Part shown: piece after piece, positions 4,814 through 40,827 of the stretch | Layout: the number at the start of each line of letters is the position of its first letter | Position numbering within the stretch: the first letter of the stretch is position 1 | NCBI GenBank assembly: GCA_036268055.1 | Contig: DATAUW010000017.1 | Span: forward strand, 186,001 to 250,000 | Direction: 5' to 3' | DNA: 64,000 nucleotides | Origin: Verrucomicrobiia bacterium | GTDB lineage: Bacteria; Verrucomicrobiota; Verrucomicrobiia; Limisphaerales; Pedosphaeraceae | Program-made: the position numbers and the translations under genes | The notes under the pieces: model-generated | Databases searched by the model: none | Seen by the model: only the letters and a program-made list of their open reading frames with translations | Told to the model about the DNA's origin: nothing

Positions 4814-7800
4814 TCGTCTCCGTCCTCGCTCGCCTTGCGCAACACCCGATATTGATGCGTCCACGGATCAATCCGGCAGATCGAACGATAGTCGCACTGG
4901 TCGCAAGCCGTCACGTTGCCCCGGCGAAACGGGTCCACCCGCGTGTCGCCCGCATAAATCGCCGCGCCCATTTTTTTCAACGCCGTCTCCACCCCATCGA
5001 GCATCGCGAGAAATTTTTCCGGCGTCATGACTTCGTGAGAACCGCCGTGAATGCTCCCGTCCTGTTTCAAACGATAATTAAACTGGTCGCCCTCGCTCAC
5101 ATTTTTGCGCTGATCAAAATGCGCAAGTTGCTCCGCGTCGAATCGTCCGGCATGGCGATACGCCAGCTTGCGCGCCGCCTCCACGCCCGCGAGAATTTCA
5201 TCGCGATTTTCGCCGCGATCATATTTGCCGCGCAAGTTGACGTAAAAAACCCCCGCCGGAATCAGCCGTGCAACGCCAAAGTGCGAGCGCGGGTCCGGCC
5301 AGTGGCGCAGCACATTGAGATAGCCCGGCAGTTGCAGTTGCAAGCCATGTTCCATCAGCAGCGCGTCGAGTTTCTTCTGGCTCGATTTATAATCCACCAC
5401 CGCGCACAACGCCGTCTCGCCATTCTCATCCTTCAAAATATCAATGCGATCAATCCGCCCGTGCAGATGGAGCCGATGCCCCCCGCCCAAATCCAAATCC
5501 CACGGCGGAAACATTCCCTCGCCAAACGGCAGTTCCACCGCCGCCGGATCGAACGCGTATTGGCCGCGCATCCAGCCCACCAGCGTCTCGACAAAATCCT
5601 TCAGCGACTCCACTAAAATCCGCGCCGTGAATTTCCCCTCCTCGCTCGCCTCGAGCAACCCGTCGCGAAAACTCCCCAGCATCCCGTCCGCGATTTTCCC
5701 GATGCGTTCGCGCGCGTCTTCCGGCGTGACGTCGCGCCACCGGCGATTTTCCCCGCGCAATTCCTCGTGAAACGACGCCAGCGCCTCATGCTGGAAATTT
5801 CCCTGGTCGCGAATGTCCAGTTCAAAAACTTTTCGCTCCTCGGCCCGCAAACCTGAGTGCACAAAAAATTTAAACGGGCACGCCGCGAATTGTTCCATGC
5901 GGCTGACCGACGTCCGCAAAATCTGGCCGTAAAGCCCTTCCGCAAATTTCGGCAAAAGCGTTTCTCCCGGCGACACCAGCGTGAGATGTTGCAAACTCGC
6001 CCGCAAATCCGCCAGCGCCGGCAAATCATCCAGCCGCGAAAGTTCCGCCACGCGATTCGGCGACGCCTGGTTGAGCAGCAGCGGCACGATGAGTTCGGAC
6101 GCGTGCTCACTCTGACGCCAATCCCGCGCGCGCGGGACGTTTTCAAATTCAAGCGTGGGAAACAGTTGCTTGAACTGCGCAAGAAACGGCGAGGGATTCA
6201 GCGGCTTGCCCGCCACATCACCCGCCGACGCAGTTAATACCAACCGCTCGCGCGCGCGGGTGAAAGCGAGATAACCGAAGAAGCGTTCCTGGCTGAGTTG
6301 CTGCCGCGCCGTGGTGAGGGTGATGCCTTCTTTTTCCAGCGCGACGCGATCGGCATCCGTCAGCAAAACCGAACCGCGCGGCGGCGCGGGAAAAATGCCT
6401 TCGTTTATGCCCAGCACCAACGCGAGCCGGATGTCCGCGTTGCGGGACCGGTCAATCGCGCCGATGGAAACCTGGTCCAGCGCGGGCGGAATCACACCCA
6501 CGCTTAAGCCCGCCAGCCCCGCTTCCAGAATCGGCAGCCACTCGCGCAACGGCAGCGGCTCCGTCGGAAACGCCAGTTCCACATTGTCGAGCCATGCGTT
6601 CATTTGCTCCCACACGGTCAAATGAATCGGATTCGGCGCAGCCTCGGTTTCACTCCATTGCTGCAAAGTATCCGCAACCTTAAAACTCTCCCAAAATTCA
6701 CGCATCGCGGCCGCAAGTTCCGCGCCCGTCGGCTTAGCGGAACTTTTCTGCCCGCGCGAACCCGGTTCCTTTTGCCCAAGCCGCGCGGCAAGTTTTTGAA
6801 ACGGCTTGATGATTTTTTCGCGCGTGGCTTCGAGATCGCGCGTGAGGCCGGGATCGTCCTTGATGAAAAGTTTTTCGTGCCAGACGTTCCCGCGCCAACC
6901 GCGTTCGAGCGCCGCATTTTCGAGACGGTCAATCGCCGCATCCGAAACCGGAATCAGCCCCGTTTTGAGCGCCGCAAACCAATCGGCGCGTTCCCACCAA
7001 TAAGTCACCGTCCGCAGCGCATTGCGCGAAAGCTCCGCCAAGGGGTGATGCGAAACCGACTCGCGCCGGTCGAGAAAAAACGGAATCTGATAACGGTTGA
7101 AAACATTCACCAGCGGCTCGTGATAACTTTGCAGATCTCGCGCCAGCACCGCCGCTTCGCGATACCTTCCACCCGCGCGAACGAACCGTAATATCTCATG
7201 CGCCGCCAACACCGCCTCCGCCTCCGCATCCGCGCACGTCGCCACGCGAATGGATTTTTTTACCAACTCACTGGCTGGCGCGGACGCCGTTTCCTCGAAC
7301 GGTTTCGGCGAAACCCAATGCGCTTCGAGATGCCGCAGCGCCGCATTATTTTCAAAACGATTTTGTTTTCGCGCGCGCGGCAACAATTCATCCGTGATCA
7401 CGCACTGCGGCAACCCGGCAATCCGCTGGCGGCATTGTTCGTACGTGTTGCGCACACTGGACCACGACGAAAGCCACGAGACTCTTTCCTTCGGCACGCG
7501 ATCCAGGCAAAACGTAATCGTCGCCGCAGCCGAGTGTGGCAAAATTTCCGCAAGCATCCCCAACTCCTGCGGCGAAAGCGCATGAAATCCATCCAGCCAA
7601 AGCCCGCCGATTTCAATCCGCCCGCCCTCGCGAAGCGTCTGCGTTGCGATATCGAGCACGCAGTCGGCATCCTGTAATTGGTGCGCGTGGAGCCACCCAA
7701 GATAATCGCGCAGCAACATCGCGAGATCGTGCAATTTGGAACTGAGACTCTCGACCGCGTTCACGTCTTCGGCGAGCCGTTCGAGCGCGTCGGGAGTCAA

Positions 7801-23336: not shown

Positions 23337-25169
23337 ATGCCGACATACAGCAACATTGCCGCTTATAAATTTGCGCCGCTGATGGAACTGCGTCCGTTGC
23401 GCGCGCGACTCCTGGCGCTTTGCCGCGAGTGGAATTTGCGGGGAACGATTTTGTTGAGCCCGGAAGGCATCAATCTTTTTGCCGCGGGCGAGCCGGATAA
23501 AATCGAGTTGCTGCTCGTCGAACTGCGAAATATTCCCGGTCTGGAAACCTTGCAGCCAAAGATAAGCGCGAGCGATCATCAGCCGTTCAATCGCATGCTC
23601 GTGCGGCTCAAAAAGGAAATCATCGCATTCGGCGTCGAGGGCATTGACCCGTCGCGGCGCACCTCGCCAAAACTTTCCGCGAGCACACTCAAGCAATGGC
23701 TCGATGAAGGCCGGCCCGTCACGCTGCTCGACACCCGCAACGACTACGAGGTGAAGCTGGGCACTTTTAAAAATGCGCTGCCCATCGGCATTGATCATTT
23801 TCGCGATTTTCCGGCGGCGGTTGCCAAGTTGCCGTTCGCGATGAAGGAGCAGCCCATCGTCATGTTTTGCACGGGCGGAATTCGTTGCGAAAAGGCGGGG
23901 CCGTTCATGGAGCGCGAAGGTTTTAAAAATATTTTCCAGCTCGACGGTGGCATCCTGAAATATTTTGAGGAATGTGGCGGCACGCATTACGACGGTGAAT
24001 GTTTTGTCTTTGATCAGCGCGTGGGCGTGGACCCGATGTTGCATGAAACCGATTCCACGCAATGTTTTCAATGTCTCACGCCGCTCAATGCCGCGGATCA
24101 AAAAGATTCGCGTTACATCGCGGGAAAATCCTGTCCCTATTGCGCGAAAACGACTGCCGAGGAGGACGCTCTCAAACTCGCACATCGCCACGAATTGATT
24201 CGCCGGGCGGTGACGCCGCTGCCCGGAAGCGTGGCGTACGATAACTATCGCCCGCTCACCGTGCCGCCGTATTGCGATGGTTTTACCGTCATCGAATTCT
24301 TGTGCGCGATTCTCTCGCATGTGCCGCGAGAAAATTGGGACGCACTTTGCGCGCAGGAATTGGTGGTGGATCATGCGTTGCAACCGGTCGCAGCTTCGCA
24401 TCGTGTCCACGCGGGCGAACGCTATGCGCGCAAGGAGCCGGACAATGTCGAACCCGGCGTCAATGCGAATATCCAAATCCTCCACGAGGACGAGGCTTTG
24501 ATTGTGGTGAACAAACCCGCGCCACTGCCGATGCACGCGGGCGGACGCTTCAATCGCAACTCGCTCGAATATATTTTGCATCGCGCGTATCATCCGCAAA
24601 AACCGCGCGCGGCGCATCGCCTTGATGCCAATACCAGCGGCGTGCTGCTCGTCACGCGGACGCGCCATTTTGCCGCCGGGTTGCAACCGCAATTCGCGCG
24701 CGGTGAAGTTGAAAAAGTTTATCTCGTGCGCGCGCAAGGTTCGCCGGAGAGCGACGCATTTTTTTGTGATGCGCCCATCAGTGACGAACCCGGCGCGGTC
24801 GGCACGCGCACGGTGGATGTTGAAACGGGTTTGCCCGCGCGGACGGAATTTCGGGTTTTGCATCGCCATGCAGACGGCACGACGTTGCTTGAAGCCCGGC
24901 CGCTTACCGGTCGCACAAACCAAATCCGCGTGCATCTCTGGCAGATGGGCATGCCGGTGTGCGGCGATCCGGTTTACTTGCGCGACAAAAAAATCGGCAC
25001 GACGCAAACGCTGGGTGTGAACGATCCGCCGTTGTGTTTGCATGCGTGGCGAATTTCATTTGTCCATCCGCTGCATCAAAAGCGCACGGAATTTACCGCG
25101 CCGCCACCGGATTGGGTAGGAGTGGAATTAGTTGGCCAAGACTTGCCGGGTGTCGAAATTCGGTTTTAA
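23337..25169 (+). CDS. Fusion of TrhO-type rhodanese tRNA hydroxylase and RluA pseudouridine synthase
   Basis: A 610-residue protein joining two RNA-modification enzymes. Residues 1-110 and the rhodanese domain (about 115-210) match TrhO, which makes 5-hydroxyuridine at tRNA position 34; the loop CTGGIRCEKA has Cys178 and Cys184. Four cysteines at 243, 246, 266 and 269 resemble a zinc site. From about 375 the chain is an RluA-type pseudouridine synthase with HRLDANTSGVLLVTR, catalytic Asp430, and RPLTGRTNQIRVHL. The two halves are in one uninterrupted frame. Whether both act on the same tRNA is unknown. It lies next to pyrF, 8 bases apart. Confidence 0.9.
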   Translation: MPTYSNIAAYKFAPLMELRPLRARLLALCREWNLRGTILLSPEGINLFAAGEPDKIELLLVELRNIPGLETLQPKISASDHQPFNRMLVRLKKEIIAFGVEGIDPSRRTSPKLSASTLKQWLDEGRPVTLLDTRNDYEVKLGTFKNALPIGIDHFRDFPAAVAKLPFAMKEQPIVMFCTGGIRCEKAGPFMEREGFKNIFQLDGGILKYFEECGGTHYDGECFVFDQRVGVDPMLHETDSTQCFQCLTPLNAADQKDSRYIAGKSCPYCAKTTAEEDALKLAHRHELIRRAVTPLPGSVAYDNYRPLTVPPYCDGFTVIEFLCAILSHVPRENWDALCAQELVVDHALQPVAASHRVHAGERYARKEPDNVEPGVNANIQILHEDEALIVVNKPAPLPMHAGGRFNRNSLEYILHRAYHPQKPRAAHRLDANTSGVLLVTRTRHFAAGLQPQFARGEVEKVYLVRAQGSPESDAFFCDAPISDEPGAVGTRTVDVETGLPARTEFRVLHRHADGTTLLEARPLTGRTNQIRVHLWQMGMPVCGDPVYLRDKKIGTTQTLGVNDPPLCLHAWRISFVHPLHQKRTEFTAPPPDWVGVELVGQDLPGVEIRF

Positions 25170-29853: not shown

Positions 29854-30537
29854 TCACAATTCCACTGTGGTGCGCTGGAGCAGAAGGTTCGGTTCGGTCA
29901 GGTCGGGAATTTTGCGGAGGCCCTGGACGACGTCGAGTTGGTAGGACGGATCGAGCAAGCGGACTTGATAGCAGCATTCGACCAAGTCGCCCTGGCCGAC
30001 TTCACGCACGGCGATCAGTGAGAAGGTCGCGCAGGTCGCGCGCAGAACATTTTTTACCTTGTCGTCGGCGCTGAACTTCGCGGGCACGACGTAACGGAGG
30101 AGCGCTTCATGGGCGCGGCGCGAGGCAAAAGGCGACCAGTGAAGCAGCAACACGGCGAGGCTGATGGTAAAGGTGCTGATGATCGCCACTCCGAAAGCGG
30201 CGGCGCCACAGGCGATGCCGACACCCATGCAGGCATATAGAAAAACCATGTCGCGCGGGTCGCGGACGGGGGTTCGGAAACGCACGATGGCCAGCGAACC
30301 AAGGATGCCGAGTCCGCGAGCAAAGCTATCGCCCACGGCCATGATGACCATGCTCACGATCATGCTGCTGAGCACCATCGTATGAATAAAGGAGCGCGAG
30401 TAGGAAATGCTTTGGAAGGTCCAGCGGTAAACCGTGGCAAGCACGCTGGCCAAAAGAAACGGCACCAGCAGCGCAAGAAAGATCTGTTCCGCGTCCAGCC
30501 AGCGCGTGCTGCCGTAGATTGAAAGAAAGTCATCCAT
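29854..30537 (-). CDS. DUF4956 membrane protein
   Basis: A 227-residue inner-membrane protein with about four hydrophobic helices. These include FLALLVPFLLASVLATVY, MVLSSMIVSMVIMAVGD and ISTFTISLAVLLLHW. The conserved family stretch GLGILGSLAIVRFRTPVRDPRDMVFLY is intact. The soluble C-terminal half resembles a small ferredoxin-fold domain. DUF4956 genes are often found next to VTC-type polyphosphate polymerase genes, as here, where it starts 18 bases after the VTC-domain gene. A membrane partner for polymer synthesis or export is inferred from context. Confidence 0.88.
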   Translation of the reverse strand: MDDFLSIYGSTRWLDAEQIFLALLVPFLLASVLATVYRWTFQSISYSRSFIHTMVLSSMIVSMVIMAVGDSFARGLGILGSLAIVRFRTPVRDPRDMVFLYACMGVGIACGAAAFGVAIISTFTISLAVLLLHWSPFASRRAHEALLRYVVPAKFSADDKVKNVLRATCATFSLIAVREVGQGDLVECCYQVRLLDPSYQLDVVQGLRKIPDLTEPNLLLQRTTVEL

Positions 30538-30555
30538 CGAAAAAAATCGGTTGGT

Positions 30556-31512
30556 TTACAAATAGCGTAGGTAGTCCACTTCGTATTCCGGCGTCCACGG
30601 GGTGGACCGGAAAATGGACTCGGCCCAGATCGCGTTGCTGAATTTGCAATGGCCCTGCCGGGTAAGATTGAGGTCCTGGACCATATTACGCATCCACCTG
30701 GGCACGTCCGACAGCGTCTTCAATTCCAGGATCACACCGGAGAAATTATATTCCTGATCGTGGCGGCGGGTTTGGTCGAGGGTTTTATCCAGGCTGCGCC
30801 AGGTGCCGTTGCGGCCCCAGCAATCCCACGCGTAGGTTTGCTGGTACTGAAGCTTGCGGTCGAAGGTGACGCGCGAGTAGTGATCGTTTTTGCCGAAGTA
30901 ACTTTCGCGCGCGTAACGGATGAGCATGATGGGACGCGCCCCGATCTGTTTGGTCAGCCGTAAAAATTGGAAAAAATTCTCGGACTCCTTGCTGGTCTTG
31001 AAATGGACGCCCTTGATGGTTTCGCCGCTGAACAGATGCTCGCCCCAGCATTCAAAGGGAATTTCTGAACGATACTTGACGACGGTGGTCCGAAACTTGG
31101 CTTTCACTTCCATGAAAACGGGAGCGCTGCCGATGGGTTCGTAAGTGCGCACCCGGAGTTTGAAGCGATCAATAAAATCCCAGAGCTTGGCGTAATGAAG
31201 GGCGAGGTTGGGCGAGTCCAACTGCAAGGTCGTGATGGTGTATTCCGAATTCTCATTGGCGCAATGGGGATCCATCTCGCAGTGGGGCCGGATGTATTCC
31301 CGAATGCTGGGAACGAGCGCGGGCGGAATGACGTATTTAAGCTCATAGCGGCCGGCGTATTCCTCCGCCGACTCGCTCTCTTCCTGGGTGGCAGGCGGAG
31401 GGATGGGAAGCGGCGGACGCGAAAATTGCACGGGTACGATCACGCCTTCCGCAGGAACTGATAATGGCGCCAGCAAGTCTTCTTCCCGAGATTTGTAAGG
31501 TTTTTCGATCAC
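30556..31512 (-). CDS. VTC-domain polyphosphate polymerase-like protein
   Basis: A 318-residue soluble protein. From about residue 52, YAGRYELKYVIPPALVPSIREYI opens a VTC tunnel-fold domain, which in yeast Vtc4 makes polyphosphate from ATP. Basic and acidic tunnel residues appear in ELKYVIP, RFKLRVRTYE, VFMEVKAKFRTTVVKYRSEIP, RYARESYFG and ILELKTLSDVP, in family order. The GTG start overlaps the upstream TolC-gene stop (GTGA), showing translational coupling; an in-frame ATG alternative is not obvious. Activity is inferred from the fold. The product could be another polymer. Confidence 0.85.
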   Translation of the reverse strand: MIEKPYKSREEDLLAPLSVPAEGVIVPVQFSRPPLPIPPPATQEESESAEEYAGRYELKYVIPPALVPSIREYIRPHCEMDPHCANENSEYTITTLQLDSPNLALHYAKLWDFIDRFKLRVRTYEPIGSAPVFMEVKAKFRTTVVKYRSEIPFECWGEHLFSGETIKGVHFKTSKESENFFQFLRLTKQIGARPIMLIRYARESYFGKNDHYSRVTFDRKLQYQQTYAWDCWGRNGTWRSLDKTLDQTRRHDQEYNFSGVILELKTLSDVPRWMRNMVQDLNLTRQGHCKFSNAIWAESIFRSTPWTPEYEVDYLRYL

Positions 31513-32948
31513 ATCTTTCTATTATCGGCATTTAACGCCACAGCTAGAGGGGCTCCGACGACACGTTCCAGGTTTAATTGCGCAAGTTGATAGAGCCAGC
31601 GCGCTTCCAAATCGAGGCGCAACGACTCAACGATCTGCGCCTCCGTGCCGGCCACCTGGGCAGGCATCACGTTTGGGGTGCGCTTGAGCAGTTCGAGAGT
31701 TTGCCGCATTTCGGCGAGGAGCGGTGCGACTTCACTTTGATTGCGCTTCTGGCGAACACGCTGCGCCTCGACTTCCTCCAAGGCGTCGCGAATTTCGTGG
31801 CGAACCACTTGCACGATGTTGGATTCATTCACCGCCGCCAAGTGAGACTGGGCAAGTTGTACGGTGTCGGCCTTATTGACCGTCCAAGTGAACAACGGCA
31901 CGTTGACCTCGATCGCCACCCACCATTCGCTGGCGGGCTCGCGATGCACGGCGCTGACGTTCTTAATCCACGGGACGCGGACATTGCGCGCTTCGTCATA
32001 ATCAGACTTCGCAGCCAGCGCCCGCCAATGCAGCGCGGCGACATCGTTGCGATATTGCATGGCGGTCTGTTGCATCGGGCCGGGCATAAGGCCGGATTCG
32101 GGAAGCGGTGCGGGTGAAGGGACATTCGTCGTGAGTTGCAAAGACGTCGAGTTCAGGTCAAGCAAAGCGGCCAGTTCCCGCCGCGCGAATTGCCAATGAT
32201 AACGCGCCTGATCCATGTCGTGTTGTGCCTGAAGCTGATGCTGCACGGCGGTGACGATTTCCGAAGCGGTGGCCGCGCCCTGGCCTTCGCGCGCGCGGGC
32301 ATCGTCGAGGATCAAGCCGTTTTGATGCGCGAGTTCCACTGTGAAGTCTACGTCCTGGGACAAATATTGAATCTCGGCAAACAGACGGCGCACGTCGTTT
32401 TCGACCAGCCATTGGGCGGCGTGAAGATCGGCGAGCGCGGCTTGAAAATCGGCGGTCCTCGCGCTGACGCGCGGCACGATCAGGAAAGGATTGGGAATGG
32501 GCAGGCGTCCGCCAAAGCGTTTTTCGCCGTCGAGATTGGACTGGTTTCCTGCGCCGTCAAACTCGTCATCAATATTGCCCCAGGTAACGATGGCTTCCGG
32601 GTCTTGAAGATCTGTGGCAGAAGCTTTGCGTTGTTTCGCCACAGTAACGGCGGCGCGAAGCGCTTTGATTTGCGGACTGCAAGCGGTCGCGCGGTCAATC
32701 GCGGCTTCGACCGATAGGGGAGCGAGCGGCGCATCCGGCGTTGCCGCGAGTTGAGCATTTGTTTGCGCCGCCGAAAAGGTAATGGGCTGTGGTGCGGGCG
32801 AGGGTGATTGAGACGACGGGGGCGTTGCCGGTTGGGTGGCGCAACCCGCGAGCAACAGGGCGCCAGCCACGCCCAGTTTATTCAACGGCCACGCTGGTCT
32901 CGTGGCGCGGGAAAAATTGTGTTGAGGATTGGCCTGCTCCTGAGTCAT
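31509..32948 (-). CDS. TolC-family outer-membrane efflux lipoprotein
   Basis: A 479-residue outer-membrane factor. The start MTQEQANPQHNFSR overlaps the HlyD-gene stop as ATGA. A signal peptide ends in the lipobox LLLAGC with lipidated Cys36. A Pro/Ser-rich linker follows, then two long helical-hairpin repeats typical of TolC/OprM proteins (SVEAAIDRATACSPQIKALR; ANTLRHE-type helices such as ESNIVQVVRHEIRDALEEVE). It would form the outer duct of a tripartite export system with the upstream membrane-fusion gene. No inner-membrane pump of RND, MFS or ABC type is in the operon. Confidence 0.88.
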   Translation of the reverse strand: MTQEQANPQHNFSRATRPAWPLNKLGVAGALLLAGCATQPATPPSSQSPSPAPQPITFSAAQTNAQLAATPDAPLAPLSVEAAIDRATACSPQIKALRAAVTVAKQRKASATDLQDPEAIVTWGNIDDEFDGAGNQSNLDGEKRFGGRLPIPNPFLIVPRVSARTADFQAALADLHAAQWLVENDVRRLFAEIQYLSQDVDFTVELAHQNGLILDDARAREGQGAATASEIVTAVQHQLQAQHDMDQARYHWQFARRELAALLDLNSTSLQLTTNVPSPAPLPESGLMPGPMQQTAMQYRNDVAALHWRALAAKSDYDEARNVRVPWIKNVSAVHREPASEWWVAIEVNVPLFTWTVNKADTVQLAQSHLAAVNESNIVQVVRHEIRDALEEVEAQRVRQKRNQSEVAPLLAEMRQTLELLKRTPNVMPAQVAGTEAQIVESLRLDLEARWLYQLAQLNLERVVGAPLAVALNADNRKM

Positions 32949-34129
32949 AACCGAAAAAAAGTCAGGCCGCGTTTGGTTTTGCCCCACCAATCGTTATCCA
33001 TCCGGATTTCGACTTTTTCGCCGGGCATGATGTCCGAGGGGCCTTCGGTTTGGAAAACGATTTTCTGCGAGCGCATGCTGGCTCCCAGCGGGGCCGAGAT
33101 GGGACTGATCTGGACGGGCATGGGATTGATCTCGGGCACGACATTTGCCACGCGCACTTTCACGGCCGGACGCCCGGCGCGAAACGCGTAACCTTGATCG
33201 TCAATCTTTACGCGGCCCAGGCGGATTTCCGGCAGGTAACCGATGACGAGGTCGCTCTTGGAAATAACGGTCATCACGCTATCGCCCGCCTTGGCGACAA
33301 CGCCGGGGAAGAGCGCGATGTCCGAGACGACGCCATCGGTTTCCGCACGGAGAGTGTAAGTGTCTTTTTCGAGGCGGCGCATTTGGACGACGGCTTCCAA
33401 AATTTTGGCTTCGGCCACGGCTTTATCCGCGATGGCTTTCGTGACGTCATCGTCCGGGCTGAGGCGCAAAGTTTTCTGAAGATCGGCGCGATGCTTGCGT
33501 TGATCGTCGAGCGCTTTTTGGTCGCGGGCGATCTGCGCGGGATAAGCGGCCACCGCTTTTTCGATGTCGGCGATTTCGGGGCGCAAGGCGTCGGCTAATT
33601 GTTCAGGGATAAGGTTCGATTTGAAAAGTTTGTCGCGTTCGGCCTGGATGGAATGCAACTGCTCCAGCCGGGCGATGGAGCTTTCCATCTGGTTCGTTTC
33701 CAATTCAATTCCGTGCTGGGACTTGAGGATTTCATCGTCAACGGCGGTGACCATGGAGAGCATCTGGCCCTGATAACCGGCCATCGTGTTTTGCGCGGTG
33801 GCCATGGTTGCCTCCGCTTCGGCGAGTTGAACGTCAATGAGCGTGGTATCGAGTTGCGCGAGCGGCTGGCCTTTGGTAACGCGGCTGCCGATCTGGACGA
33901 AGATCTGTTTTACGCGCGCGGCTTCGAGCGGCGCGACCTGGTGCTGGATGACCTGGGCGGTGGCGGTGATGATGCCGTATTGAATCGTCCGCACATAAAG
34001 CACTATGCAAATGAGCGTCAGGCCCAGCCACGAAAAGATCGGCCAATTAATGGCCAGCCGCCGCAAATGCCACCGCTGGACGCGGCGCGATCCCATGAGA
34101 CTAAGAATGTCATCGTTTTCTTTTCTCAT
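32945..34129 (-). CDS. HlyD-type membrane-fusion protein
   Basis: A 394-residue periplasmic adaptor. The N-terminus MRKENDDILSLMG is followed by one membrane helix (IFSWLGLTLICIVLYV). The split lipoyl/biotinyl half-motif VAPLEAARVKQIFVQIGSRVTKGQPLAQLD comes next, then a long coiled coil and the second half ETDGVVSDIALFPGVVAKAGD. It is the first gene of an operon running HlyD, TolC, VTC, DUF4956. The first two junctions overlap by four bases. An upstream TTG at 34210 is a less likely start. The cargo is unknown. Confidence 0.9.
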   Translation of the reverse strand: MRKENDDILSLMGSRRVQRWHLRRLAINWPIFSWLGLTLICIVLYVRTIQYGIITATAQVIQHQVAPLEAARVKQIFVQIGSRVTKGQPLAQLDTTLIDVQLAEAEATMATAQNTMAGYQGQMLSMVTAVDDEILKSQHGIELETNQMESSIARLEQLHSIQAERDKLFKSNLIPEQLADALRPEIADIEKAVAAYPAQIARDQKALDDQRKHRADLQKTLRLSPDDDVTKAIADKAVAEAKILEAVVQMRRLEKDTYTLRAETDGVVSDIALFPGVVAKAGDSVMTVISKSDLVIGYLPEIRLGRVKIDDQGYAFRAGRPAVKVRVANVVPEINPMPVQISPISAPLGASMRSQKIVFQTEGPSDIMPGEKVEIRMDNDWWGKTKRGLTFFRL

Positions 34130-37723: not shown

Positions 37724-40705
37724 TTACTCCGCACGCGCGCGGAAAAACAAAAGGCCATCATCGGTATTCACGGGCTGCGAAACATCAATAAAACCCCCGG
37801 CAAGCATGTTGGTGTTTATTGGTTGCCACGTCGAGGCGTTCAAATTCGACGAACTTTCAACAATGACGGAAAGATTCGTTGCCCATGAAATGCGAAAACC
37901 TATTGTTTTATTTTGGCTATTCCAAGACACACTTTTGCTCAATATTATTGGGTATGGGAGCGTCCACAAAGATGTTGATAAACCGGCAAATGAGGGCGCC
38001 CATCCAGCGGTGCCGGGCAAATAATAAATGGTGGCTGAATCACGTGAAAAACCTGAACCAAATATCAAAGTGCCAATACTTGGGGCATTCCCGCCAAAAT
38101 ATACGGATTGTAAAGCAGGGCAGTCTGCAAATGCAGAACTATTTATAAAATTCAAGCTGTTTGGAAGTGTGATACTTGTAATTTTCGTACAGTCCTGAAA
38201 TGCACTTATACCAATAGATCTGACTGTATTCGGTAAATTGACGGTGGTGATATTGGTGCAGCCCTCGAACGCGCCAGGCCCGATCGAAATGCAACCGTAC
38301 GGAATTGTATAGGAGTTCGCGCTGTTTCCGGGAGGATATTCGGTCAAACTGAGAGGAGCACGGGCAAAAAGCACCCCATTAATGCTTATATAAATCGGAT
38401 TGTTTACGTTGACGTTAATTGCGTCCAGATTATAGCAATATGCAAAAGCGCTCGTTCCTATATTCGTAACTGAACTTCCGATGACTACGTTGGAAAGGCT
38501 TGATCCTGAAAATGGATCATTTCCTGCAAATGCCAGAGATCCAATGCTGGTGATTCCATTTTGAAGGTTTATGGCGTTTAAGTTGCAGCCTTGGAATGCG
38601 CTTGCTCCAATGCTGCAATTTGTGGTGCCAAAAGTCACATTAGACAATCCTGAGTCCTCCCAGAAGGCAAAAGGACCTATGTTGGTCACACTTCGGGGAA
38701 TAACAACATTGGTAAGCGCTGGGCAACTTTCGAATGCATTGCTATTAATATCAAGCAGTTCTTGTCCCAAATGTATGTATGACAAGCTCGAGCAACCCAA
38801 AAAAGCTTCAGAACCAATAGAGGTGACCGAATCGGCGATGGTTAGTTGTCGTAAATTGCTACAAGCATAAAAGGCGCTTTCGCCAATTTGTAATACGGAA
38901 TTAACTATATTTATATTTGTCAAGCCAGAGCAGCCATCAAATGCCTGATCTCCGATATTTGTCACGCCGTACGGAAGCGATACATCTGTCAGATTCTTAC
39001 AGTATAAAAAAGCTGCCGGACCTATTATTACCACCGTCGGCGGGATAGTATAACTTCCCGATAGACCAGCAGGATATTGCAATAGAGTGGACTGGCTCCT
39101 GTCGAGCAGCACTCCATTTAGGCTGCTATAAGAGAGGTTGGCGGCATCTACAGTTATATTAAGCAGCGTTGGACACGAGAGCGCATATTGCCCAATAGAC
39201 ATCACACTCTTAGAAATAAAAATATTCGTAAGGAAATAACAATTATAGAAAGCTTCAATTCCTATGCTCGTCACATTTGTGCCGAATTGTATGCTGCTCA
39301 AGTCGGTTTGAAAGAATGCGTACATTCCTATGTTGGTTATGCTGTCTGGCAATATTATACTCGCAAGTCCAGTCTCTGAAAACGCGCTGTCCGCGATAGT
39401 TTGCAGCCCGTTTGGCAACACAACATTTGTTAACATATAGCACGATTGGAATGTGCCAGATCCCAGGTTGGTAAGATCATGTGGAAGAATAATTGATGTC
39501 AAATAAGAGCAGTTCTGAAACGCATGTTCACCGATACTGACAATACTAGTTGGCAAAAGCATCTGGGAAAATTGCCCTCCAACAAATGCATTTGACTCAA
39601 TGCTGGATACAGGTAAACCATTAATAGTTGAAGGAATGGTTGCCAATGTGTTTGTCCCCGTGTACCCAGTTATAACAATTCCCCCATTGTTTGTTGTGAA
39701 CGCAAATGGGATAACATTAACAGTGAGTGTGGCTGCCGAGCTTAACACGGCACCAACCGCATTACTTACAACCACTGAGTATGCGCCATTATTGGAGACG
39801 GAGGCGCTAGGAATAGTGTAACTTGATGAGGTCGCTCCTTGTATCGCTAAAGAACCATAATACCACTGGTAGTTAAGCGTGCCTGCACCCGAAGCGGCGA
39901 CAGTAAAATTGGCCGAACTGCCGCCCATTATTGACACACTTTGTGGAGGGGTAGTGATCGAGGGCGGCGCTATCGTGGAAGCATAGACGTGTGCATTTGG
40001 GTTGGCGGTACTCGTAGTGCCAGTGTCGGAAAAGACCACCACAACATTTGCGTTGTTATCACTCAATCTGTAGGAAACTCCGGAAATGGCGCCGCCATCA
40101 GCCGCTTGTGGTTCTGCGTAAAATCCACCCAAATCTACCTGCCCTTGAGATGCATTGACGGTTGCTGGTTGATTATCGCTGGCTGTTCGAACAGCCGTAT
40201 TCACAACCGACACTAATGCTGGATACGACGCGGTGGCGGAGGCGGCGCTGACCTGCAGGTAATATGTCTGGGCAGCAGTCACTCCAAATGTAAAACTCCC
40301 GCTTTGATTAAACGGACCATTTACGTTGTAGGTGGCTTCTTTTATTATTGACTTAGAAGAGTCCAGAATTTCAGCCCGCCCATAAACAGTCGAAATTGTT
40401 CCGTCGGTCGTGTACGTACCAACGGATAGCGTATAGCTTACAGTTGCTGTTCCACTTTCTGGTGCACCAAAGCTGACTTCATCAGGTACCGATTGACTAA
40501 TTGGGGAAAACGCGCTGATTTGCTCCGACCCCTGCGTTTGGCTTGTCCAAGTTTCGGTTCCCGTACCAACAGCGAGCCAAGAAAATGCCTGGTTCGGGTA
40601 CAGTGGGTATCCCGTTGGTTGTGCGCGAAGTGATTGAAAGGCCGCTAATGCTAACGCCAATACAATCGAGGCTGTAAATGTAAATCGGAGGGGTCTAATC
40701 TTCAT
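37724..40705 (-). CDS. Secreted leucine-rich-repeat (BspA type) surface protein
   Basis: A 993-residue exported protein with signal peptide at residues about 1-29 (FTASIVLALALAAFQSLRA). The N-terminal ~190 residues look like a beta-sandwich. An Ig-like domain follows (PPQSVSIMGGSSANFTVAA ... YQWYYGSLAIQG). Then come many 22-24-residue LRR_5 repeats of the form SIG-AF--C--L--I-LP--VT-I, roughly residues 340-900. A short C-terminal module completes it. BspA-type repeats occur in adhesins and cell-contact proteins. Base composition is clearly A+T-richer than its neighbours, and tRNA-Gly 3' sequences flank it, which suggests acquisition. ATG at 40705 gives the signal peptide. Confidence 0.85.
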   Translation of the reverse strand: MKIRPLRFTFTASIVLALALAAFQSLRAQPTGYPLYPNQAFSWLAVGTGTETWTSQTQGSEQISAFSPISQSVPDEVSFGAPESGTATVSYTLSVGTYTTDGTISTVYGRAEILDSSKSIIKEATYNVNGPFNQSGSFTFGVTAAQTYYLQVSAASATASYPALVSVVNTAVRTASDNQPATVNASQGQVDLGGFYAEPQAADGGAISGVSYRLSDNNANVVVVFSDTGTTSTANPNAHVYASTIAPPSITTPPQSVSIMGGSSANFTVAASGAGTLNYQWYYGSLAIQGATSSSYTIPSASVSNNGAYSVVVSNAVGAVLSSAATLTVNVIPFAFTTNNGGIVITGYTGTNTLATIPSTINGLPVSSIESNAFVGGQFSQMLLPTSIVSIGEHAFQNCSYLTSIILPHDLTNLGSGTFQSCYMLTNVVLPNGLQTIADSAFSETGLASIILPDSITNIGMYAFFQTDLSSIQFGTNVTSIGIEAFYNCYFLTNIFISKSVMSIGQYALSCPTLLNITVDAANLSYSSLNGVLLDRSQSTLLQYPAGLSGSYTIPPTVVIIGPAAFLYCKNLTDVSLPYGVTNIGDQAFDGCSGLTNINIVNSVLQIGESAFYACSNLRQLTIADSVTSIGSEAFLGCSSLSYIHLGQELLDINSNAFESCPALTNVVIPRSVTNIGPFAFWEDSGLSNVTFGTTNCSIGASAFQGCNLNAINLQNGITSIGSLAFAGNDPFSGSSLSNVVIGSSVTNIGTSAFAYCYNLDAINVNVNNPIYISINGVLFARAPLSLTEYPPGNSANSYTIPYGCISIGPGAFEGCTNITTVNLPNTVRSIGISAFQDCTKITSITLPNSLNFINSSAFADCPALQSVYFGGNAPSIGTLIFGSGFSRDSATIYYLPGTAGWAPSFAGLSTSLWTLPYPIILSKSVSWNSQNKTIGFRISWATNLSVIVESSSNLNASTWQPINTNMLAGGFIDVSQPVNTDDGLLFFRARAE

Positions 40706-40753
40706 TATTTGCCGTTCCAATTATTGCACTTTTCTCAAGTCATTGACTATCAA

Positions 40754-40827
40754 TGGAGCGGGTGAAGGGAATCGAACCCTCGTCTCAGCCTTGGGAAGGC
40801 CACATTCTACCATTGAACCACACCCGC
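40754..40827 (-). tRNA. tRNA-Gly (anticodon CCC)
   Basis: The minus strand folds as a complete cloverleaf. The acceptor stem GCGGGTG/CACCCGC is followed by discriminator U and an encoded CCA (40754-40756). The D-arm is of the type GGTTCAATGGTAGAA. The anticodon loop TTCCCAA gives CCC, reading GGG. The T-arm is CGAGGGTTCGATTCCCTTC. Its 3' end is copied imperfectly at 37604-37631. Confidence 0.93.

Follow-up and report, generated by a model that had tools for sequence, protein, structure and literature searches.

How could a phosphate polymer made in the cytosol reach the surface of a bacterium with two membranes? This question is raised by a four-gene operon of a Verrucomicrobiia bacterium of the family Pedosphaeraceae (assembly GCA_036268055.1, contig DATAUW010000017.1), which we analyzed within a stretch of 64,000 nucleotides (contig positions 186,001 to 250,000, forward strand; hereafter the window, whose coordinates are used throughout). 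The genes lie on the minus strand and encode an HlyD-type membrane fusion protein (32945..34129, 394 amino acids from an ATG start), a TolC-type outer membrane lipoprotein of the OEP family (31509..32948), a VTC-domain (triphosphate tunnel) protein (30556..31512, 318 amino acids), and an MgtC-like DUF4956 membrane protein (29854..30537, 227 amino acids from an ATG start). Each open reading frame (ORF) exceeded the curated Pfam cut-off of its family (HlyD_3, 32.5 bits against 22.2; OEP, 59.1 against 22; VTC, 111.9 against 23; DUF4956, 51.5 against 30.6). An earlier note, made from the DNA alone, had described four genes joined by two overlaps and a short gap, and this is borne out by the ORFs, the sequence, and Pfam: the HlyD stop overlaps the OEP start as ATGA (32948-32945), the OEP stop overlaps the VTC start as GTGA (31512), and 18 bases separate VTC from DUF4956. 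The core of what we observed is a conserved gene unit with the mapped polymerase residues kept, no flanking pump gene, and co-occurrence with CotH genes. This suggests that, in this soil bacterium and many distant relatives, the unit may be a dedicated machine, as yet putative, that would carry a phosphate polymer out to the surface of the cell.

Across the phylum, 387 genomes were compared; 56 of them, counting that of the window, had a protein matching the window VTC, and 33 of the 55 others carried a window-like one (38-53% identical). In 30 of these 33 survey loci VTC-DUF4956 was followed by HlyD, while L085 and L094 were without it and L104 was incomplete. Searching named genomes with a DUF4956 alignment yielded 234 relatives, the best 80 of which were examined as loci; note that these overlap the 33 survey loci and that at least 2 genomes contribute 2 loci each. 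They belong mostly to Verrucomicrobiota (Kiritimatiellae, Lentisphaerae, Verrucomicrobiales, and others), with a few named only "bacterium" and one from Sumerlaeota. HlyD stood beside VTC-DUF4956 in 77 of the 80, and 57 had an OEP match too. The orders found were VTC-DUF4956-HlyD-OEP (53 loci, plus 3 with a split HlyD or OEP), VTC-DUF4956-HlyD (20), VTC-DUF4956 alone (3, of which L142 is incomplete), and HlyD-OEP-VTC-DUF4956 (1). OEP was called with our own 15-sequence profile, and 10 of the 57 matches scored below 60 bits; of these, L119 is clear in Pfam, the Pontiella locus L137 reaches 21.4 against a cut-off of 22, and the other 8 rest on our profile. Four of the 20 loci without an OEP match end within 0.7 kb of HlyD (L133, L162, L176, and L188). 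Because of these counts, and of the genes that take the place of OEP elsewhere (see below), we regard HlyD as the near-constant and OEP as a frequent partner.

The unit extends beyond close relatives. VTC proteins of other subfamilies were present in 41 of 58 family- and order-level relatives, none of which had a close orthologue (matches were 27-38% identical). In 20 such sister-subfamily loci picked among these relatives, HlyD lay directly behind DUF4956 in 7, with a weak match in L047, an OEP match occurred in none, and CotH was nearby in 5. A search with the single window HlyD (phmmer) missed most sister-clade HlyD proteins, which profile hidden Markov models recovered. As a side observation, an HD-domain-like protein (18 bits, below cut-off) lies behind VTC-DUF4956-HlyD in an order-level relative (L036:9980-12069). 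Outside the phylum, 18 of 40 Sumerlaeota genomes matched DUF4956. Sixteen of their loci were examined in addition to L177 (genome G443), with G446 left out: 9 have VTC-DUF4956-HlyD, 4 (L228, L229, L232, and L233) gave no HlyD match, L225 is incomplete, and 2 have no recognized VTC. L177 itself reads VTC(partial)-DUF4956-HlyD-OEP, its OEP scoring 22.1 against a cut-off of 22. The expectation that the genes co-occur beyond one genus thus held for VTC-DUF4956-HlyD, which reaches Sumerlaeota, and less fully for all four genes together, which are not universal. Distances between DUF4956 proteins correlate with those between the HlyD proteins (Mantel r 0.76, 67 loci), which we take to show that the unit descended as a whole, not that the two proteins touch. 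On a tree, the presence of HlyD requires 8 changes, and long branches make this tree unsafe for judging origins. HlyD and OEP are common families, and an ordinary tripartite efflux pair might lie beside VTC-DUF4956 by chance. Since the same genes adjoin in dozens of divergent genomes, the grouping is beyond chance, and the return of the same partners in differing arrangements, without any pump that recurs, contradicts a chance neighborhood and makes it highly improbable. Hence, VTC-DUF4956-HlyD, often with OEP, is very probably a conserved and functionally linked unit.

Using an alignment of 29 VTC sequences as query (the window's and 28 of the 33 window-like survey sequences), the best PDB matches were to yeast Vtc4 (3g3q/5iiq, E 8e-11). 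Fourteen positions could be paired between the window VTC and Vtc4 (R55-R196, K59-K200, R120-R264, R122-R266, E135-E279, K137-K281, K146-K294, R148-R296, Y200-Y359, R202-R361, R214-R373, D218-D377, E263-E426, and K265-K428), all of which we take to be tunnel residues of Vtc4. All 14 are invariant across the 29 sequences, so that the conservation of tunnel residues, the lack of which would have spoken against the earlier note, is seen at every mappable Vtc4 position. The protein could instead be a triphosphatase or another tunnel enzyme that makes no polymer. At the position of Vtc4 T198 it has an acidic residue, E57, a feature of TTM hydrolases, and this E57 presumably matches the second Glu of the hydrolase ExExK motif; the mapping of the protein onto AtTTM3 is likewise partly our assumption. 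However, R55 stands in place of the first Glu and E263 is followed by K265, both as in Vtc4 (R196 and K428), and no CYTH hydrolase was found among the 12 PDB sequences up to E 10. Passages on bacterial VTC proteins in the literature gave no enzyme assay, which leaves room for the hydrolase alternative, but given the Vtc4 matches we consider it improbable. Vtc4-type polymerases have basic residues in place of the acidic patch of the hydrolases (PMC4641920, in the part concerned); in the window VTC this site is mixed, with R55, R148, and K265 basic and E57 acidic. The invariant R120, R122, and E263 are the equivalents of the residues changed in Vtc4 R264A/R266A/E426N, the catalytically impaired mutant that passages of PMC9911596 describe as used for cryo-EM. 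From the conserved residues we consider it likely that the window VTC makes polyphosphate. Pfam detects VTC alone in its 318 amino acids, with no SPX and no transmembrane domain of its own. The window genome has one VTC gene and one PPK1-type kinase, which means that ordinary polyphosphate storage does not require VTC. An apparent 1684-amino-acid VTC fusion in L113/L141 was rejected as an artefact of a long ORF, since CotH is encoded there in a different frame, and no VTC was confirmed in viral contigs.

Of the other three proteins, DUF4956 is the candidate for the inner membrane. Its predicted structure consists of about 5 membrane helices and an ACT-like C-terminal domain (pLDDT 76.7, pTM 0.54; ACT match 3ibw), and 6 arginines in the membrane part (Arg 48, 74, 86, 88, 92, and 95) are invariant in 56 sequences. 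By sequence, nothing significant was found in the PDB (best E 0.35), and the window protein gives weak, below-cut-off Pfam matches to MgtC. The ACT-like fold and these MgtC matches would also suit a module that senses or regulates, in which DUF4956 detects a nucleotide or amino acid and adjusts phosphate metabolism accordingly while HlyD-TolC reports on the envelope. In line with this, the parts of PMC12345266 dealing with Streptococcus intermedius report that a mutant of SIR_1592 (MgtC/ACT), which we take for DUF4956, makes more Pel, yet aggregates less. A sensor of this kind leaves unexplained a periplasmic adaptor and a frequent outer membrane channel conserved across 2 phyla, and we hold it to be doubtful at best.

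The AlphaFold2 model of HlyD (mean pLDDT 88.3) has one N-terminal transmembrane helix, a lipoyl/barrel-sandwich domain, a long coiled-coil hairpin, and beta domains, and its nearest solved fold is EmrA (4tko, E 4e-19). A TTG lying 27 codons further upstream could also serve as start; the protein of the sister locus L118, however, likewise has 394 amino acids from its ATG. A strong N-terminal hydrophobic stretch is found in 59 of 72 HlyD proteins. The window OEP has the lipobox LLAGC with C36 (motif scan); a lipobox-like motif occurs in only 12 of 54 OEP proteins, so that being a lipoprotein is not a general trait. The operon thus contains the pairing of membrane fusion protein and OEP by which tripartite efflux and type I secretion systems are recognized. 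It shares with HlyD/EmrA-TolC exporters the EmrA-like adaptor fold and the TolC-type channel but differs from them in having no ABC, RND, or MFS pump, which leaves DUF4956 as the only inner membrane candidate. As the earlier note had stated, we found no separate pump: none is encoded among the 27 other window ORFs scanned (5 of them without any match), where transport is represented only by an ammonium transporter, at a distance of 10.7 kb. Among 112 same-strand neighbors in the 30 longest loci, no ABC, RND, MFS, glycosyltransferase, or pel/exopolysaccharide synthase family was matched by at least 2 proteins (the survey covers families with 2 or more members, most single-member families falling outside it), and no pel/exopolysaccharide synthase occurs among the scanned window ORFs. 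The families that do recur include LTD (7), CotH (6), POR (6), alcohol dehydrogenase (6), and DUF6807 (5).

DUF4956-HlyD-TolC might instead export another cargo (a glycan, small molecule, or surface protein), VTC being an accessory whose cytosolic polyphosphate or signal energizes or regulates export. This is suggested by 2 closely related Sumerlaeota loci, L234:3780-7569 and L235:6814-10564, in which an MgtC/DUF4956-type gene, OEP, and HlyD occur with no VTC recognized. The L235 membrane protein scores higher for MgtC (36.9 bits, cut-off 31.4) than for DUF4956 (24.4, cut-off 30.6); its OEP and HlyD_3 score 63.1 and 38.9, and the L234 OEP 57.7. Since such a protein accompanies HlyD-TolC even without a recognized VTC, it seems to stand in the place of the pump. 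Perhaps also relevant is a plasmid of Hymenobacter volaticus (L204:5796-10777) with HlyD-like, DUF4956, TolC family, and type IX secretion system sorting-domain genes in a row; its HlyD-like protein is a weak match recognized mainly by eye (hhalign probability 38%, E 3e-4; no Pfam match at 0.1 and no PDB match at 0.01), and the search for HlyD in plasmids gave no match. Large CotH/LTD proteins, possible cargo, are encoded next to the operon in some loci. However, the protein region behind DUF4956 in L118 starts with a Sec-type signal by eye and needs no type I route through the inner membrane, no glycosyltransferase family recurs among the neighbors, and VTC retains its mapped active site. We consider export of another cargo rather unlikely, though it deserves consideration. 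Altogether, 3 arrangements were found: HlyD-OEP-VTC-DUF4956, VTC-DUF4956-HlyD(-OEP), and MgtC/DUF4956-OEP-HlyD without a recognized VTC. By eye, the genes ahead of the MgtC/DUF4956-type gene in L235 resemble those for PspA and PspC-type phage-shock proteins.

Comparing gene content across genomes revealed a partner that the earlier note had overlooked. Of the 56 genomes matching the window VTC, 54 had CotH, compared with 45 of the 331 others (Fisher p 8e-36), and by genus it was present in 38 of 40 against 24 of 158 (p 7e-22), in tests that ignore relatedness and may miss VTCs too distant from the window's. The window genome has 6 CotH-domain genes, all on other contigs and none beside VTC-DUF4956. 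A profile built from five CotH sequences picked up CotH ORFs in 14 named loci (of 80) and 10 survey loci (of 33), so that adjacency is common without being general. Two monoderm plasmids carry CotH-VTC-DUF4956 and VTC-DUF4956-CotH, with no HlyD or TolC among the annotated neighbors in their incomplete gene tables. In Sinorhizobium meliloti pSymA, a DUF4956-like gene lies directly behind a gene for what is, by eye, a caspase-like secreted protein (L236:5290-7660).

A related gene set is known from Gram-positive bacteria. Passages of PMC7112168 list CotH, a polyphosphate polymerase (PPP), and DUF4956 as accessory genes of pel loci, and those of PMC2879425 on Clostridium perfringens NELoc-2 place VTC, "tubulin", and CotH genes side by side; we take the "tubulin/FtsZ" membrane genes for DUF4956. 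In S. intermedius, mutants of SIR_1592 and of CotH had altered Pel levels and aggregation, and the authors, in the part concerned, failed to find CotH/VTC/MgtC-ACT synteny outside the Pel locus (PMC12345266). The CotH-PPP-DUF4956(-DUF4832) genes of pel loci and NELoc-2 resemble the window operon in that VTC (PPP) adjoins DUF4956 and in the functional link to CotH, but the passages concerned describe no HlyD/TolC and tie the genes mostly to Pel or other glycan genes, whereas in window-type loci HlyD is near-constant, OEP is frequent, and no glycosyltransferase family recurs nearby. Among the open-licence papers listed by our searches, we found none on VTC-DUF4956 with HlyD-TolC and, for polyphosphate export, none that combined two of the four terms sought.

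We therefore return to the export of polyphosphate. Our tentative preference, held at somewhat less than even confidence and drawn from sequence comparisons, is that the operon would be the diderm form of a bacterial VTC-DUF4956(-CotH) module, with polyphosphate exported through the duct. VTC would polymerize phosphate from ATP in the cytosol, as its conserved active site suggests, and DUF4956 would be its membrane partner in place of the inner membrane pump. The invariant DUF4956 arginines might take up the nascent chain, which DUF4956 would hand on towards the periplasm in the way that the membrane helices of yeast Vtc1/3/4 would; HlyD and the TolC-type protein, judged by fold and linkage, would extend the path across the periplasm and the outer membrane. 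The product would then reach the surface, where the large secreted CotH/LTD proteins may bind or use it, as their co-occurrence hints. The yeast VTC complex (Vtc1/3/4) has the same VTC/TTM polymerase domain with catalytic residues, and passages of PMC9911596 describe synthesis coupled to a basic transmembrane channel, to which the path proposed here would correspond. It differs in that the window VTC is without SPX or a fused membrane domain, DUF4956 being the putative membrane part, and that the window operon adds 2 envelope proteins. The earlier note had proposed synthesis with export or sensing of polyphosphate or a related polymer across both membranes; the dedicated synthesis-plus-duct module is supported, while the identity of the polymer and export rather than sensing are what we infer. 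A bolder version, which we judge improbable, is that MgtC-like DUF4956 replaces the pump of HlyD-TolC and that VTC-fed polyphosphate passing both membranes is an ATP-free donor for extracellular CotH kinases modifying giant surface proteins.

Several points weigh against export of polyphosphate. The channel role of DUF4956 is putative, and E57 of VTC is hydrolase-like. K458, which passages of PMC4641920 describe as catalytic in Vtc4, falls outside the printed alignment, K290 being the candidate equivalent. OEP is not constant: the next gene encodes a transaldolase in L196, and in L138 and L165 Pfam recognizes nothing in the ORF that follows. HlyD is absent within reach in L121, L129, L085, L094, 4 loci of Sumerlaeota, and several VTC loci of Limisphaerales. 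The TolC-docking motif of the hairpin tip of membrane fusion proteins is R-x3-L-x6-S/T. At the corresponding positions of 46 HlyD proteins, 30 have R, 34 have L, and 12 have S; the window protein reads E, L, and P. Counting S or T, all three residues stand in these columns in 9 of the 46, and the full motif occurs anywhere in the sequence in 16 of the 46. The CotH association has the limits given above. Deletion of the S. intermedius VTC gene SIR_1593 brought no reported change in the passages concerned (PMC12345266), and Pontiella, a carrier of the operon with ppk and ppx, stained negative for polyphosphate in exponential phase according to the relevant part of PMC7356697. Weighing these, we regard passage of the polymer through the HlyD-TolC duct as a possibility that narrowly fails to persuade us. 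Should it be true, the unit would be a pump-less, polymerase-driven export duct. It bears on the exit of polyphosphate from bacteria, on the role of DUF4956, and on the supply of CotH kinases outside the cytosol, and its conservation in the cultured Pontiella sulfatireligans (L137, with a borderline TolC-type gene) makes gene deletion and reconstitution feasible.

The earlier note had taken the window arrangement without seeing that its gene order is a rearranged exception. Among the 80 named loci, HlyD-OEP-VTC-DUF4956 is common only to the window and L118 (Limisphaerales bacterium palsa_1440), whose DUF4956 is 92% identical to that of the window; L119 and L120 (69% and 66% identical) have the usual order. 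The DNA alignment of window and L118 spans 34093 to 29856 and no further, in a comparison covering 8 kb downstream and 455 bases upstream in L118, 55 of them N. Because it is confined to the operon, the block has persisted while at least one flank differs. On the 3' side of DUF4956, L118 has a 687-amino-acid ORF, the one with the signal peptide, followed by a 1923-amino-acid ORF with 5 LTD stretches, CotH, and a carbohydrate-binding domain. Two unknown bases (6909-6910) near their junction suggest that they are one gene. Partial homologues of this LTD/CotH protein, 50-63% identical, are encoded on 2 other contigs of the window genome.

In the window, the operon is flanked on its upstream side by divergent cupin and cyclase genes and on its downstream side by genes for a pseudouridine synthase and an Rrf2 regulator (Pfam). 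A single ORF at 23337-25169 combines a UPF0176/rhodanese part with an RluA-type pseudouridine synthase domain. A large BspA-type leucine-rich repeat protein with an Ig domain, probably surface-exposed, is encoded at 37724-40720, 3.6 kb upstream of the operon, and a tRNA-Gly lies beside its gene at 40754-40827.

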